Virus record (IMG/VR): IMGVR_UViG_3300042301_001264
Location: 1 to 30,103 of that record
Origin: a virus
Length of the DNA stretch: 30,103 nucleotides
Direction: 5' to 3' (one strand)
Below, piece after piece: positions 22,999 to 30,103 of the stretch (its first letter is position 1; each line of letters starts with the position of its first letter). The position numbers and the translations under genes were made by a program. A model generated the notes under the pieces. That model was not told where the DNA came from, did not search any database, and saw only the letters and a program-made list of their open reading frames with translations.

Positions 22999-24240
22999 AT
23001 GCCAACAACAACAGAAGAGCAAGATGTACTTCATTGTGCTGATTGCTCAACAGAAATAACAAGCGAAGATTATGTAGACAATGTAGGTGACCCTATATGC
23101 GAAGATTGTAACGACAACTATCACTCATGCGCTGGTTGTAGTGATGTTATCCACAGCGATGATACTTATTTCGCAAATGATGACTCTTGGTGTAATGATT
23201 GTTACGTCAACAGATTTTCTACATGTGATGATTGTAATGAAGTAATTCGCAACGACGATATATGCCAAGTCCATGGTAGAAGTGGTAGTGAAAGATATGT
23301 ATGTGATGATTGTCGTTCTGATTACTATTGGTGTGAGAGTTGTGATGAGTATGTTCATGAGGATAACTATTGTCAAGACGATTTGTGCAATGATTGTTAT
23401 AACGATAGATATGGTGACGATGATGATGACGGTAGCAGCAGCAGTAAAGAAATCATACGCAGCTACAATTACAAACCTACCCCTAAGTTCTACAAGGTGT
23501 CCGAGAATGACAACGTGTATCTAGGTATTGAGTTAGAGGTAGAGCGTGGAGATAGTAATGTAACACACAAGGCTATGGCTGAAATGGTTAGCAATGACTT
23601 CTTATACTTCAAGAGTGACGGTTCACTTAACAATGGGTTTGAGATTGTAACCCACCCTATGACTATATCGTATATCAAGAAGCATAAGAATGTATGGGCA
23701 GATATACTTAACCTATTGCGTAGCAACAAGTATCGTAGCTATGACACTCGTACTTGTGGTATGCATATCCATATCAGCAAGAATGCCTTTACAACCTGGC
23801 ATCTATATCGCTTCATGAAGTTCTTTGTTGACAATAGTGACTTTGTTACCAAGATATCTCAGCGTAAGATAGAGAACCTTGACCGATGGGCAGCCCTTAC
23901 CGATGACCCAAGCGAGAGTACTAAAGAGTACACACAAGAGACGCTTATGTACAAGGCAAAGAAAAAGCGTGGCAATAGCAAGCGTTATCTTGCTGTAAAT
24001 TTACAGAATGATAATTCAGTAGAAGTTCGTATCTTTAGGGGTACGCTTAATGACTCATCGTTCTTCAAGAACATCGAGTTTGTTCAAGCGTTGTATGACT
24101 ATACCAAGTCTATCCCTGACCCTGATATGAGTCTAAAATCTTTTCTAACTTTTATTAAAGATAACAATGAATATCCGTATCTTCGCAAGTTCATTGCTGA
24201 TAAAAATATTAATCCTTTCACTAACAATCAAAACAATTAA
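22999..24240 (+). CDS. Zinc-ribbon amidoligase (COOH-NH2 ligase superfamily)
   Basis: The 413-residue protein has two parts. Residues 1-135 carry a series of CxxC pairs (C13/C16, C34/C37, C44/C47, C65/C68, C76/C79, C102/C105, C112/C115, C130/C133) that should form several zinc ribbons. After an Asp/Ser linker, residues about 172-400 match the putative amidoligase family: LGIELEVE (175-182), SDGSLNNGFEIVTHP (206-220), CGMHIHIS (253-260), AVNLQN and VEVRIFRG (341-348). Relatives of glutamine synthetase, these enzymes are predicted to join a carboxylate to an amine using ATP. The glutamine amidotransferase gene follows after 3 bases, so the two are likely partners. The substrate is unknown. Confidence 0.75.
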   Translation: MPTTTEEQDVLHCADCSTEITSEDYVDNVGDPICEDCNDNYHSCAGCSDVIHSDDTYFANDDSWCNDCYVNRFSTCDDCNEVIRNDDICQVHGRSGSERYVCDDCRSDYYWCESCDEYVHEDNYCQDDLCNDCYNDRYGDDDDDGSSSSKEIIRSYNYKPTPKFYKVSENDNVYLGIELEVERGDSNVTHKAMAEMVSNDFLYFKSDGSLNNGFEIVTHPMTISYIKKHKNVWADILNLLRSNKYRSYDTRTCGMHIHISKNAFTTWHLYRFMKFFVDNSDFVTKISQRKIENLDRWAALTDDPSESTKEYTQETLMYKAKKKRGNSKRYLAVNLQNDNSVEVRIFRGTLNDSSFFKNIEFVQALYDYTKSIPDPDMSLKSFLTFIKDNNEYPYLRKFIADKNINPFTNNQNN

Positions 24241-24243
24241 ACT

Positions 24244-25149
24244 ATGTGTATCGCAATCGTAAATCCAAAAGCAGTAACCCTTAAGAAACAAATCCTACAG
24301 AATTGTTGGGATAATAATAATGATGGTGCAGGTATCCTGTATATCAATAACAACAAAGTAGTAGCCAAGAAAGAAATGACTGACTTCAATATCTTCTATG
24401 GTTATTATCAAGAAGCCAAGCGTTCAGGTAATGACGTTATCCTTCACTTCCGTATCGGTACAAGTGGTGGTGTTAACGAACACAACTGTCACCCATTCCA
24501 TGTACAAGATGATACATGGTTTGTACACAATGGTATGTTAGATGTTCATGTCCCACACAACAGCCCTATATCTGACACCCAGATATTCAACAATGGGTTC
24601 CTCAAAGGCTTACCTAAGGACTTTATGTATAACGATACTTTGCTTGACCTTATTGAGTATAGTATAGGCAATGGTAACAAGTTCATATTCTTTAACGAGC
24701 ACGGCCATTGGCGTATCGTCAACGAGCAAGCAGGTACGTGGGACTTGGGTTGTTGGTTCAGTAACAAGTCTTATAGTTATAGTTATAAAAAACCTACGTA
24801 CAATAACTATACGTATGGTAGTGCATACTCCCCAAGTACAAGCGTAGGTTATCCTCGTGTGTACAATGATTGGGACGATACCTATGATGTTAAGTCTGAA
24901 TACAAATGGGATAGCGACACTAATAGTGAGGATATGATGTGTGAGTCTTGTTGTGAGTTATACCACAAAGATGAGTTAGAAGAGTTGCCTGATTTCAATA
25001 ACGCTATGGTATGTTGGGATTGCTATGACTCTATGATGTATGAGATGTATGGCGATGAATACATTAGCGAGCGTGATGAAGAAATTGTCCACTATAATAA
25101 ATCTTACGACCAACCAAAGTCAGCTTATGACCCTTTGGCTTGGAAATAA
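24244..25149 (+). CDS. Class II glutamine amidotransferase with C-terminal zinc ribbon
   Basis: The 301-residue protein starts MCIAIV; after Met removal Cys2 is the N-terminal nucleophile of the Ntn-hydrolase fold, which releases ammonia from glutamine. Other family marks are DGAGILY (27-33), LHFRIGTSGG (67-76), NCHPFHV (81-87) and FVHNGML (93-99). The glutaminase part ends near 170. A Tyr/Ser-rich linker (175-210) and a CxxC...CxxC ribbon (C233/C236, C257/C260) follow. It is shorter than PurF or GlmS and lacks their synthetase domains; the neighbouring amidoligase could supply the ligase function. Confidence 0.78.
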   Translation: MCIAIVNPKAVTLKKQILQNCWDNNNDGAGILYINNNKVVAKKEMTDFNIFYGYYQEAKRSGNDVILHFRIGTSGGVNEHNCHPFHVQDDTWFVHNGMLDVHVPHNSPISDTQIFNNGFLKGLPKDFMYNDTLLDLIEYSIGNGNKFIFFNEHGHWRIVNEQAGTWDLGCWFSNKSYSYSYKKPTYNNYTYGSAYSPSTSVGYPRVYNDWDDTYDVKSEYKWDSDTNSEDMMCESCCELYHKDELEELPDFNNAMVCWDCYDSMMYEMYGDEYISERDEEIVHYNKSYDQPKSAYDPLAWK

Positions 25150-26993: not shown

Positions 26994-27040
26994 TGTGGAT
27001 AACTTTATTAGGAATAATAATAAAACATTCTGTATCTTTG
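26994..27040 (+). promoter_or_regulatory. DnaA box plus host-type promoter
   Basis: TGTGGATAA (26994-27002) is a perfect DnaA box on the minus strand (TTATCCACA). Thirty bases later TATCTTTG (27033-27040) matches the Bacteroidota -7 element; no good -33 box is seen. The same arrangement recurs at 29031-29076. Confidence 0.5.
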
Positions 27041-27066
27041 TAAAAGATTGTTCATAGTTGATTAAG

Positions 27067-27104
27067 GCGTAGAGATTTTCTACAGATTTGTCTCTACGCT
27101 TTTA
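27067..27104 (+). terminator. Terminator just downstream of a promoter, attenuator-like
   Basis: GCGTAGAGA (27067-27075) and TCTCTACGC (27091-27099) form a perfect 9-bp stem followed by a U-run. It lies about 25 bases after the -7 box at 27033-27040. An alternative hairpin GTAGA/TCTAC (27069-27073, 27079-27083) would break it, as in attenuation. Confidence 0.6.
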
Positions 27105-27108
27105 ACTT

Positions 27109-27124
27109 TAACGTATTATATTAT
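27109..27124 (+). promoter_or_regulatory. Phage motif copy 7, plus strand
   Basis: TAACGTATTATATTAT, immediately after the terminator and 92 bases before the initiator ATG. Together with the following TG it is identical over 18 bases to the copy at 28951-28968. Confidence 0.65.
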
Positions 27125-27129
27125 TGTAT

Positions 27130-27192
27130 AACCTGTCGCAGAGGTTTTAAAGACATAAATGGCTTTTAAATGAGAAGGAACTGCGACTCCTT
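27130..27192 (+). promoter_or_regulatory. 5' leader with two hairpins whose loops are complementary (kissing loop)
   Basis: Hairpin 1 is AACCT(GTCGCAG)AGGTT at 27130-27146. Hairpin 2 is AAGGA(ACTGCGAC)TCCTT at 27175-27192, perhaps inside an outer GGCTT/AAGCC stem (27161-27165, 27202-27206) followed by a U-run. The loop GTCGCAG is perfectly complementary to CTGCGAC, so the loops can pair over 7 bp. The leader ends 24 bases before the initiator start codon. Confidence 0.55.
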
Positions 27193-27216
27193 TGATTTTT
27201 TAAGCCTTTTTTATTT

Positions 27217-27717
27217 ATGAACCATAATTGGTATGCAGTTATTACTGCTAAAGTCTTAATGGCAAAAGACTTATCTTCAACCCAAAAGTTATTAATGGCT
27301 TTAATAAGTAACCTCTCTAATGAGAAAGGGTATTGCTATGCATCTAACAAATATCTTGGAGAATGTTTAGACATTAGTCAAATCACAGCAAGCAAAAATA
27401 TATCTGACTTAGAAGAGAAAGGTTACTTATCTAGGGTGTTAAACATTGACCCTGTTAGTAAGGAAATTAAGATGAGAGTATTAGTAATTAGGGAACACCC
27501 AAATACGTTTGGTATGGTTGAAAAAGGAAAGACCTCTAGTCGAAAAAGGAAAGCCCCTATGGTTGAAAATGACCATACCCCTATGGTTGAAAAGGGAAAA
27601 GATAATAACAAAGTATTAATAACAAATATAATAACAAATAGAATAGAAGATAACATAAATGATTTTAACCCATTTGATGATGACTCATGGATTGGGTTAA
27701 CTCCTAAAAATAAATAA
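27217..27717 (+). CDS. Winged-helix replication initiator / replisome organiser
   Basis: The 166-residue protein has an N-terminal winged-helix (about 1-95): WYAVITAKVLMAKDLSSTQK, ALISNLSNEKGYCYASNKYL, then SQITASKNISDLEEKGYLS (recognition helix and wing). This matches phage DNA-replication HTH proteins that bind the origin and load the replisome. Residues about 100-130 repeat MVEKGK and MVEN and are encoded by DNA repeats that probably serve as binding sites within the gene, like lambda O. The C-terminus is acidic (DFNPFDDDSW), possibly a helicase or loader contact. It sits behind an elaborate leader, so its synthesis looks tightly controlled. Confidence 0.7.
   Translation: MNHNWYAVITAKVLMAKDLSSTQKLLMALISNLSNEKGYCYASNKYLGECLDISQITASKNISDLEEKGYLSRVLNIDPVSKEIKMRVLVIREHPNTFGMVEKGKTSSRKRKAPMVENDHTPMVEKGKDNNKVLITNIITNRIEDNINDFNPFDDDSWIGLTPKNK
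27511..27600 (+). repeat. In-gene iterons of about 22-24 bp, candidate replication origin
   Basis: TATGGTTGAAAA occurs at 27513-27524, 27558-27569 and 27582-27593. A fourth, diverged unit (CTAGTCGAAAAAGGAAAG, about 27536-27553) lies between the first two in a different reading frame. Unit spacing is 22, 23 and 24 bases. Frame-independent conservation points to a DNA-level function. Confidence 0.6.
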
Positions 27718-29092: not shown

Positions 29093-29467
29093 ATGGGCAG
29101 TAGACCTCAAAGAAAGAAAGAGTACGTACGCTTTAGTATGAACCCTGACAATTATCGTATTGTTATGGGTGGCATTCTGCATTTTGAAGTAGAATGTAAT
29201 GATGACTCTACGCCTGACTTAGGGTTAGAAGGGATAGAAGGTTTAGATAGTAAATGCTGGATGGATATGGCAATCAAAATGGAATCTATTGTAGCTATCA
29301 AACCAACTGGTTCATTAGAATCTGAAATCACCCATGGTAAAGCTTCAATAGTATTAGATAGTGGTCCTTGGGAAACTATATCTACTAATATACCATACGA
29401 ATATATGTGTGCTATATGGGAAGATTACCTAGCAGGACCAATTAAAACAATATATCGTGGGCAATAG
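29093..29467 (+). CDS. Protein of unknown function upstream of the sigma factor
   Basis: A 124-residue beta-rich protein (MGSRPQRKKEYVRFSMNPDN) with FEVECNDDSTPDLG in the middle and a C-terminal helix with Trp. I do not recognise a family. It overlaps the sigma-factor gene by 11 bases and probably shares the host-type promoter, so it may act with that factor in the switch of transcription. Confidence 0.55.
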   Translation: MGSRPQRKKEYVRFSMNPDNYRIVMGGILHFEVECNDDSTPDLGLEGIEGLDSKCWMDMAIKMESIVAIKPTGSLESEITHGKASIVLDSGPWETISTNIPYEYMCAIWEDYLAGPIKTIYRGQ

Positions 29468-30103
29468 CTTCAAATCAATATCTGTAAACCCTACTAATGT
29501 AGACTTTGACAATGATTACTCGCTGTCAATACTACTTAATGACCCTATCTTTAAAAGAAAGGCAGCCCAAATGAAGAATGAAGAAGCTATGGAGCTATTC
29601 AAACTTTATAAGTCAACAGGTGAGTTAAAGTATAGAGATAAAATTGTTGAAGGTTACATGAAGCTTATGCTATATGTTGCTATTAAGTATTGGCAACCTG
29701 GGTTTTTAGTTAGTGACCTACTGCAAGAAGCCGTTATGGGTTTCATGTTAGGGATAGACAAGTATAACAATGAGAAGTATTCAGAGTTCGGTAAAGCTAA
29801 GCTATCATCTTATTGCTTCTTCTATAGCAGGAAATACATAATAGACTTTATAGAAAAGAATAAATGTATAGTAAAGATTACCTACTCACCGTTAAGAGCA
29901 TCACAAAAACTTAAGAAGATGATGGACACAGCAGTAGCTGTAATGGAGTTGGACGAAAGAATGATACCTTTAGATGTTGTATTAAAACAAAACGTAACTA
30001 TGGAAATGGCAGCAGCACTCGGTGCACTATCTGCGACAACTGCAATCGTATCAACAAATAACCACGACGAGATAGACTTTGTATCCGATGGTGGTATATA
30101 CTC
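29457..30103 (+). CDS. Sigma-70 family RNA polymerase sigma factor, N-terminal part
   Basis: The reading frame is open to the right edge (215 residues seen). An in-frame TAG at 29430 limits the start; the only good start is GTG at 29457, the next ATG being at 29571. Sigma region 2 is clear at about 60-137: KLMLYVAIKYW, FLVSDLLQEAVMGFMLGIDK, then SSYCFFYSRKYIIDFIEKN, the residues that bind the polymerase clamp and melt the -10 element. KITYSPLR (140-147) may begin region 3. Region 4 is not recognisable in the visible part. A phage sigma factor could direct host polymerase to the AACGTATTATAT promoters of the window. Confidence 0.75.
   Translation, partial: MGNSFKSISVNPTNVDFDNDYSLSILLNDPIFKRKAAQMKNEEAMELFKLYKSTGELKYRDKIVEGYMKLMLYVAIKYWQPGFLVSDLLQEAVMGFMLGIDKYNNEKYSEFGKAKLSSYCFFYSRKYIIDFIEKNKCIVKITYSPLRASQKLKKMMDTAVAVMELDERMIPLDVVLKQNVTMEMAAALGALSATTAIVSTNNHDEIDFVSDGGIY

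Follow-up and report, generated by a model that had tools for sequence, protein, structure and literature searches.

Control of replication initiators by RNA is a classic theme of plasmid biology. The rep leaders of pT181 and pIP501 are structured and place a terminator-like stem with a poly(T) run just 5' of the initiator start (PMC5703833). In the IncI-complex plasmid ColIb-P9, pairing with a loop occurs within the leader of the mRNA for the initiator repZ (PMC10724649). According to titles of cited work, the repZ pairing activates translation and an antisense RNA competes with it. In phages, GOLLD and ROOL are encoded RNAs, often near tRNA genes, with covarying kissing loops that join separate molecules (PMC12286853).

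We analysed a 30,103-nt stretch of viral DNA (the window; positions 1 to 30,103 of IMG/VR record IMGVR_UViG_3300042301_001264). Positions 27119-27216 very likely form a conserved, uncatalogued cis-acting leader RNA of replication initiators in phages that are probably of Bacteroidota; this rests on sequence comparison, and function is inferred. Comparison shows that a promoter box is followed by a hairpin (P1), which lies at the predicted 5' end, and then by a linker and a helix (P3) bearing a second hairpin (P2); the P1 and P2 loops are complementary and covary, and a U-run comes after P3. As in pT181, a terminator-like stem and U-run stand upstream of the initiator start, with U-runs weak in some members. 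The pT181 and pIP501 countertranscript is an antisense RNA from an opposing promoter, whereas the phage leader carries the complement within itself. Loop pairing within an initiator mRNA leader, the feature of ColIb-P9 repZ, is also met, but in the phage leader two hairpins pair, usually over 6-8 bp, without an evident antisense gene (TAnnTTTG-type promoter search only). These plasmid leaders are, by analogy only, the nearest functional counterparts; both depend on an antisense RNA, which that search did not find here. GOLLD and ROOL are large RNAs that build multimeric cages, in contrast to an mRNA leader of ~90 nt.

Rfam 15 gave no match in the window at the gathering threshold, none at E<=1 in nine loci and, in nine more, one unrelated weak match away from the element. 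No phage leader of such build was found in Rfam 15 or the open-access literature searched, in agreement with the original prediction, which knew of no described phage leader of this form.

Architecture of the leader in the window

The features are as follows, all on the + strand.

27033..27040, +: upstream promoter-like box TATCTTTG, exact TAnnTTTG, about 90 nt upstream of the proximal box (sequence; also in L001)
27067..27099, +: extra 9-bp hairpin GCGTAGAGA/TCTCTACGC between the two boxes (sequence, folding)
27119..27126, +: proximal promoter-like box TATTATTG, one mismatch to TAnnTTTG, 3 nt 5' of P1 (sequence; TAnnTTTG boxes at the matching position in relatives)
27130..27146, +: hairpin P1, AACCT-[GTCGCAG]-AGGTT, which would stand at the 5' end of an RNA started from the proximal box (sequence, covariation, folding)
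27135..27141, +: kissing loop L1, GTCGCAG (sequence, covariation)
27147..27160, +: linker from P1 to P3 (sequence)
27161..27165, +: P3 5' strand, GGCTT (folding, covariation)
27174..27193, +: hairpin P2, GAAGGA-[A CTGCGAC]-TCCTTT, nested within P3 (sequence, folding, covariation)
27181..27187, +: kissing loop L2, CTGCGAC, complement of L1 (sequence, covariation)
27202..27206, +: P3 3' strand, AAGCC (folding, covariation)
27207..27212, +: T6 run immediately 3' of P3, a terminator-like U-run (sequence; T enrichment in relatives)
27217..27717, +: replication initiator-like ORF, HTH_36, 166 aa (PF13730, E 3.9e-9; phrog_19658, E 1.1e-17)

Read directly, L1 and L2 are complementary at 7/7 positions with five G-C pairs. 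P3 is capped by P2, and its 3' end abuts T6 shortly 5' of the initiator ATG (27217). The original prediction of two hairpins with 7-base complementary loops held, with two refinements: P2 is 5 bp plus one G-U pair, and its loop has 8 nt, of which only the 3' seven pair with L1. The predicted location between a phage promoter motif and the initiator ATG also held and is conserved in relatives, and the downstream gene is initiator-like. P3, the U-run, the spacing from promoter to P1 and the spread of the family had not been foreseen.

The minimum free energy fold of 27127-27216 contains P1, P2 and P3 with both loops open. In 27117-27230, P2 and P3 form with loop 2 open and the P1 region folds into a short 3-bp hairpin instead. 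In a fragment that cuts into P3 (27130-27200), a long-range 7-bp stem between the loops wins.

The window by itself is unremarkable. Fold z-scores at the leader are -1.93 (114 nt), -0.22 (71 nt) and -4.79 (221 nt, which takes in another hairpin). A relaxed scan for kissing pairs gave 3-22 matches in 20 shuffles, as many as the window holds, and a claim of genome-wide significance from the window alone was rejected on these grounds. A strict scan requiring both loops to be exactly 7 nt found none in the window; it misses this pair because the second loop has 8 nt. That the kissing pair is real is settled by comparative data, not by the window sequence.

In Flavobacterium the TAnnTTTG box lies at -12 to -5 (PMC9723704), and in relatives the box mostly ends 1-6 nt 5' of P1, which would put P1 at the RNA's 5' end. 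The predicted start from the proximal box is near 27131, and a start near 27045 from the upstream box is possible; both are inferred. L001 and L031 carry different hairpins at the place of the window's 27067-27099 hairpin. G-U cells outnumber A-C cells by 11 to 3 in the elements, which points to an RNA of this strand. A search of 58 elements for an opposing promoter, of this type only, saw two minus-strand TAnnTTTG boxes against 8.8 expected, rarer than background (one member, L104, is probably a false entry left in the set, which also served the linker test below). A conventional antisense RNA from a TAnnTTTG-type promoter is thus improbable.

Covariation of the kissing loops

The first homology search returned 28 loci, and later searches enlarged the set. 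Among the leaders of these loci the same architecture recurs in different letters. The loop pairs include GTTGCAG/CTGCAAC, GTCGGAT/ATCCGAC, ATGCGAC/GTCGCAT and GGACGAG/CTCGTCC, with GTAGTG/CACTAC in a longer-spaced form. Alignment A3 holds 15 elements and omits L069 (cut too short in A2), L157 (a near duplicate) and L032 (6-nt loop, longer spacing). All four helices covary: 23/24 pairs change on both sides, comprising every pair of P1, P2 and P3 and 6/7 of the kissing helix. Pairing is satisfied in 92.6% of cells, compared with 35-45% when partners are slid, and the few unpaired kissing cells fit L011, the only misaligned row, whose loop is two bases longer.

Covariance model R1 contained P1, P2 and P3 only and no kissing pairs, so loop complementarity was not selected. 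Its strong matches in phage contigs (72 in 83 sources and 13 in 84 further, 85 in total) correspond to 40 unique sequences with 9 different loop sequences, and every one has complementary loops. By model columns 39/40 show 7 contiguous complementary bases; L329 shows 6 by model boundaries and 8 pairs when the full loops are read. The 40 include the 15 model seeds, five of which (L039b, L072b, L154, L165, L169) were first spotted by a complementarity scanner. Swapping loops between types leaves 6/110 pairing at >=7, the number expected because three rows share loop 1 GTTGCAG; between different loop sequences there are 0/104 matches. Across 45 viral records R1 finds a strong match in 25, exactly one in 24 of them and two in G009. 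In L002 and L031 an accessory gene directly precedes the initiator ATG, and the R1 match sits upstream of that gene instead.

A second class was tested in a different way, with P2 blocks found through their conserved flanks and P1 through hairpin strength, and L1 not consulted. Loops are complementary over 6 or 7 bases in 16/17 unique blocks, the sole exception (L307) having 5 contiguous pairs and a bulge. The class-2 alignment, A6, has P1 misaligned and was excluded from model building. Among divergent members upstream of initiators, L069 and L133 (GGTCTCAC/GTGAGACC) differ from L131 (CCTCTCAC/GTGAGAGG) by a double compensatory change; L111, L112, L113 and L126 are further examples of such members. 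A pattern scan of 85 loci (L294-L378) gave 43 forward matches, whereas the reversed sequence gave 5 and the reverse complement 6. Pattern scans (these loci, a 77-pattern set and the cultured phages) are biased towards complementary loops and were left out of the independent proof, and roughly 15 low-scoring or AT-rich members of the 77 are regarded as chance. The independent proof is the loop-blind R1 matches and the second-class block test.

These comparisons show that the loops are maintained complementary by compensatory change, meeting the structural criterion for kissing loops. The original prediction was to fall if related phages varied one loop without a matching change in the other; this was checked and did not refute it, as 40/40 unique R1 sequences and 16/17 second-class blocks stay matched. 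A genuine conserved RNA with a kissing contact is strongly indicated, on sequence comparison and without data on physical contact. The mutually exclusive long-range stem, also raised originally, is less supported: nearly all types lose complementarity beyond the loops, and the stems of the two hairpins covary independently of each other, as loop-loop contact predicts. Linker length against helix (arm) length gave a Spearman coefficient of -0.45, which lends no support to an intramolecular geometry; helix boundaries set by the parser confound this test.

Nucleotide searches of phages returned nothing, and cultured phages were reached through protein searches, which led to 93 Flavobacterium phage records. 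The element precedes replication genes in 13/13 of those inspected, in three distinct leader sequences, with carriers in Lillamyvirus, Muminvirus, Hattifnattvirus and Elemovirus. The pair GTGAGAAG/CTTCTCAC of morran9-1 is compensatory to GTGAGACG/CGTCTCAC of snork6-1 and relatives. Pattern scans of morran9-1, snork6-1 and elemoA matched only these leaders and one before an endonuclease gene (snork6-1), with 2 matches in 8 control scans of reversed sequence; on the window the same scan gave one minus-strand AT-rich match, considered chance. Passages of the paper describing the first cultured group (PMC7077304) mention neither promoter nor terminator, and neither secondary structure nor RNA-seq. 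Because the family is spread over many phage contigs and also occurs in cultured phages, a possible tuning of tailed-phage replication by an RNA attenuator becomes directly testable. The natural matched loop pairs are also a collection of candidate orthogonal kissing pairs.

The family has limits. No such leader was seen in the stretches inspected upstream of the distant initiators L013-L028, nor upstream of the start in the sample inspected of L073-L107, which have no strong R1 match. A Bacteroides phage and a faecal clone (L386, L387) hold no convincing element. A first scan of prokaryote genomes found no relatives; in a second, the only relatives came from bacterial assemblies whose titles mostly name Clostridia, Bacilli and similar groups, and a control on those assemblies (544 kb) gave one promoter-anchored pattern match scoring >37, at 41.5.

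Proposed attenuation and rival readings

We propose that this conserved element acts as a transcription attenuator of the initiator. We assign this main reading a probability of roughly 0.5; attenuation is inferred without transcript, termination or reporter data. Taken separately, attenuation could as readily prove wrong as right. P3 and the U-run would form an intrinsic terminator that limits expression of the initiator and the downstream replication operon. The kiss between P1 and P2 could form before the P3 3' strand is transcribed and may set how often P3 closes. We lean to a kiss that favours read-through rather than termination, because linkers of ~11-17 nt look short, by a rough estimate and not a computed one, for the kiss and a closed P3 to exist together. 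This direction is tentative and held with low confidence.

At least 6 of the 8 nt that follow P3 are T in 26/32 unique leaders; the mean is 6.1, versus 2.2 where other ORFs start (the minus-strand row was left out of this count). In the cultured phages about 26-50 nt separate P3 from the start of the annotated gene, and the U-run is still on P3. A U-run tied to P3 even at this distance from the gene moderately favours attenuation. Against this reading, the window's proximal promoter box carries a mismatch, and U-runs are weak or interrupted in several members, e.g. CACTTTTATTTT. A simple terminator scan did not flag the element, but such a structure falls outside its loop limit of 8 and its rule for short stems. 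The T-rich stretch before the ATG might instead help ribosomes to bind in a phylum that lacks Shine-Dalgarno sites. The originally suggested control of copy number or translation remains unproven.

Translational control is a possible but less likely rival. P3 and the kiss would keep a structured block near the start codon, where it would gate an AU-rich ribosome site or insulate it. In favour of this, P3 and the ATG are 8-14 nt apart in 32 unique class-1 leaders, Shine-Dalgarno sites are absent from Flavobacteria (PMC9723704), and pseudoknot-dependent initiator translation is known for plasmid ColIb-P9 (a title cited in PMC10724649). The distant gene starts of the cultured phages, where the U-run stays on P3, speak against it, as do the accessory genes between leader and initiator in L031, L072, L301 and L332, though these could take over the ribosome site. 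Less probable is a role at the 5' terminus, where the structure would protect the end of the mRNA or adjust how fast it decays and the kiss would serve as a stable scaffold. The predicted start on the first bases of P1 would suit such a role, and so would a structure kept while its sequence is free, but a GC-rich P3 fixed to a U-run is left unexplained.

Action in trans is likewise doubtful. Here termination would release the leader as a small RNA, which would use its two loops to pair with other leaders and so act as its own antisense or form a dimer. Both partners are present on every RNA, the loops diversify yet stay matched as expected of specificity determinants, and GOLLD and ROOL oligomerise in this manner (PMC12286853); however, intramolecular kissing should win at low concentration and there is no evidence of a free small RNA. 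A bolder version, also unlikely, makes one leader RNA both target and antisense: terminated leaders, made in proportion to genome copies, would kiss nascent leaders in trans, break their internal kiss and shut off initiator synthesis. If true, this would be a copy-number brake for a replicating phage without a separate antisense gene, and loop divergence would set compatibility groups among co-infecting phages. A DNA-level element, with inverted repeats or single-stranded hairpins of an origin beside the initiator gene, is very hard to sustain. It would account for the adjoining initiator, and inverted repeats exist in DNA as well, but the excess of G-U over A-C, the promoter box at narrow spacing and the copies before endonuclease genes all count against it. 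A chance hairpin pair, which the window under relaxed criteria would allow, is all but excluded by the covariation and the loop-blind tests.

Genes behind and around the leader

phrog_19658, matched by the window's initiator, is a phage replication-initiator family. Initiators behind the leaders differ in N-terminal domain (HTH_36, DUF1376, DUF6291 or unassigned), and several classes have in common a C-terminal segment with KNWKQKM, which indicates that the leader stays with the replication locus. From its promoter boxes and from the relatives in culture, we infer that the phage probably has a bacteroidote host.

In the initiators of L296, L310, L049, L165, L169, L113 and L304, N-terminal DNA-binding domains are swapped and C-terminal segments are common within groups. 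The genes between leader and initiator in L031, L072, L301 and L332 are of accessory or homing type; the kinds seen are VSR-like (by eye), C5 methylase (PF00145), T5orf172/MUG113 and HNH. In L039:7118-7222, L185, L380:698, L381:686, L394:46 and L396:30, an endonuclease gene is preceded by a second kissing-loop leader that has a promoter box of its own; this endonuclease is annotated in the cultured phages, and in L039 it looks NUMOD/HNH-like by eye. A short way 5' of the leader there is a tRNA gene in L031:3181-3255 (Ile), L382:1372-1448 (Ala) and L383:1374-1448 (Met). Elsewhere in the window, adjoining ORFs at 22999-24240 and 24244-25149 are amidoligase-like (PF12224) and weakly class II glutamine amidotransferase-like (PF13230), and 29457-30101 is a phage sigma-factor-like ORF (PF04542 just under the cut-off; phrog_351).
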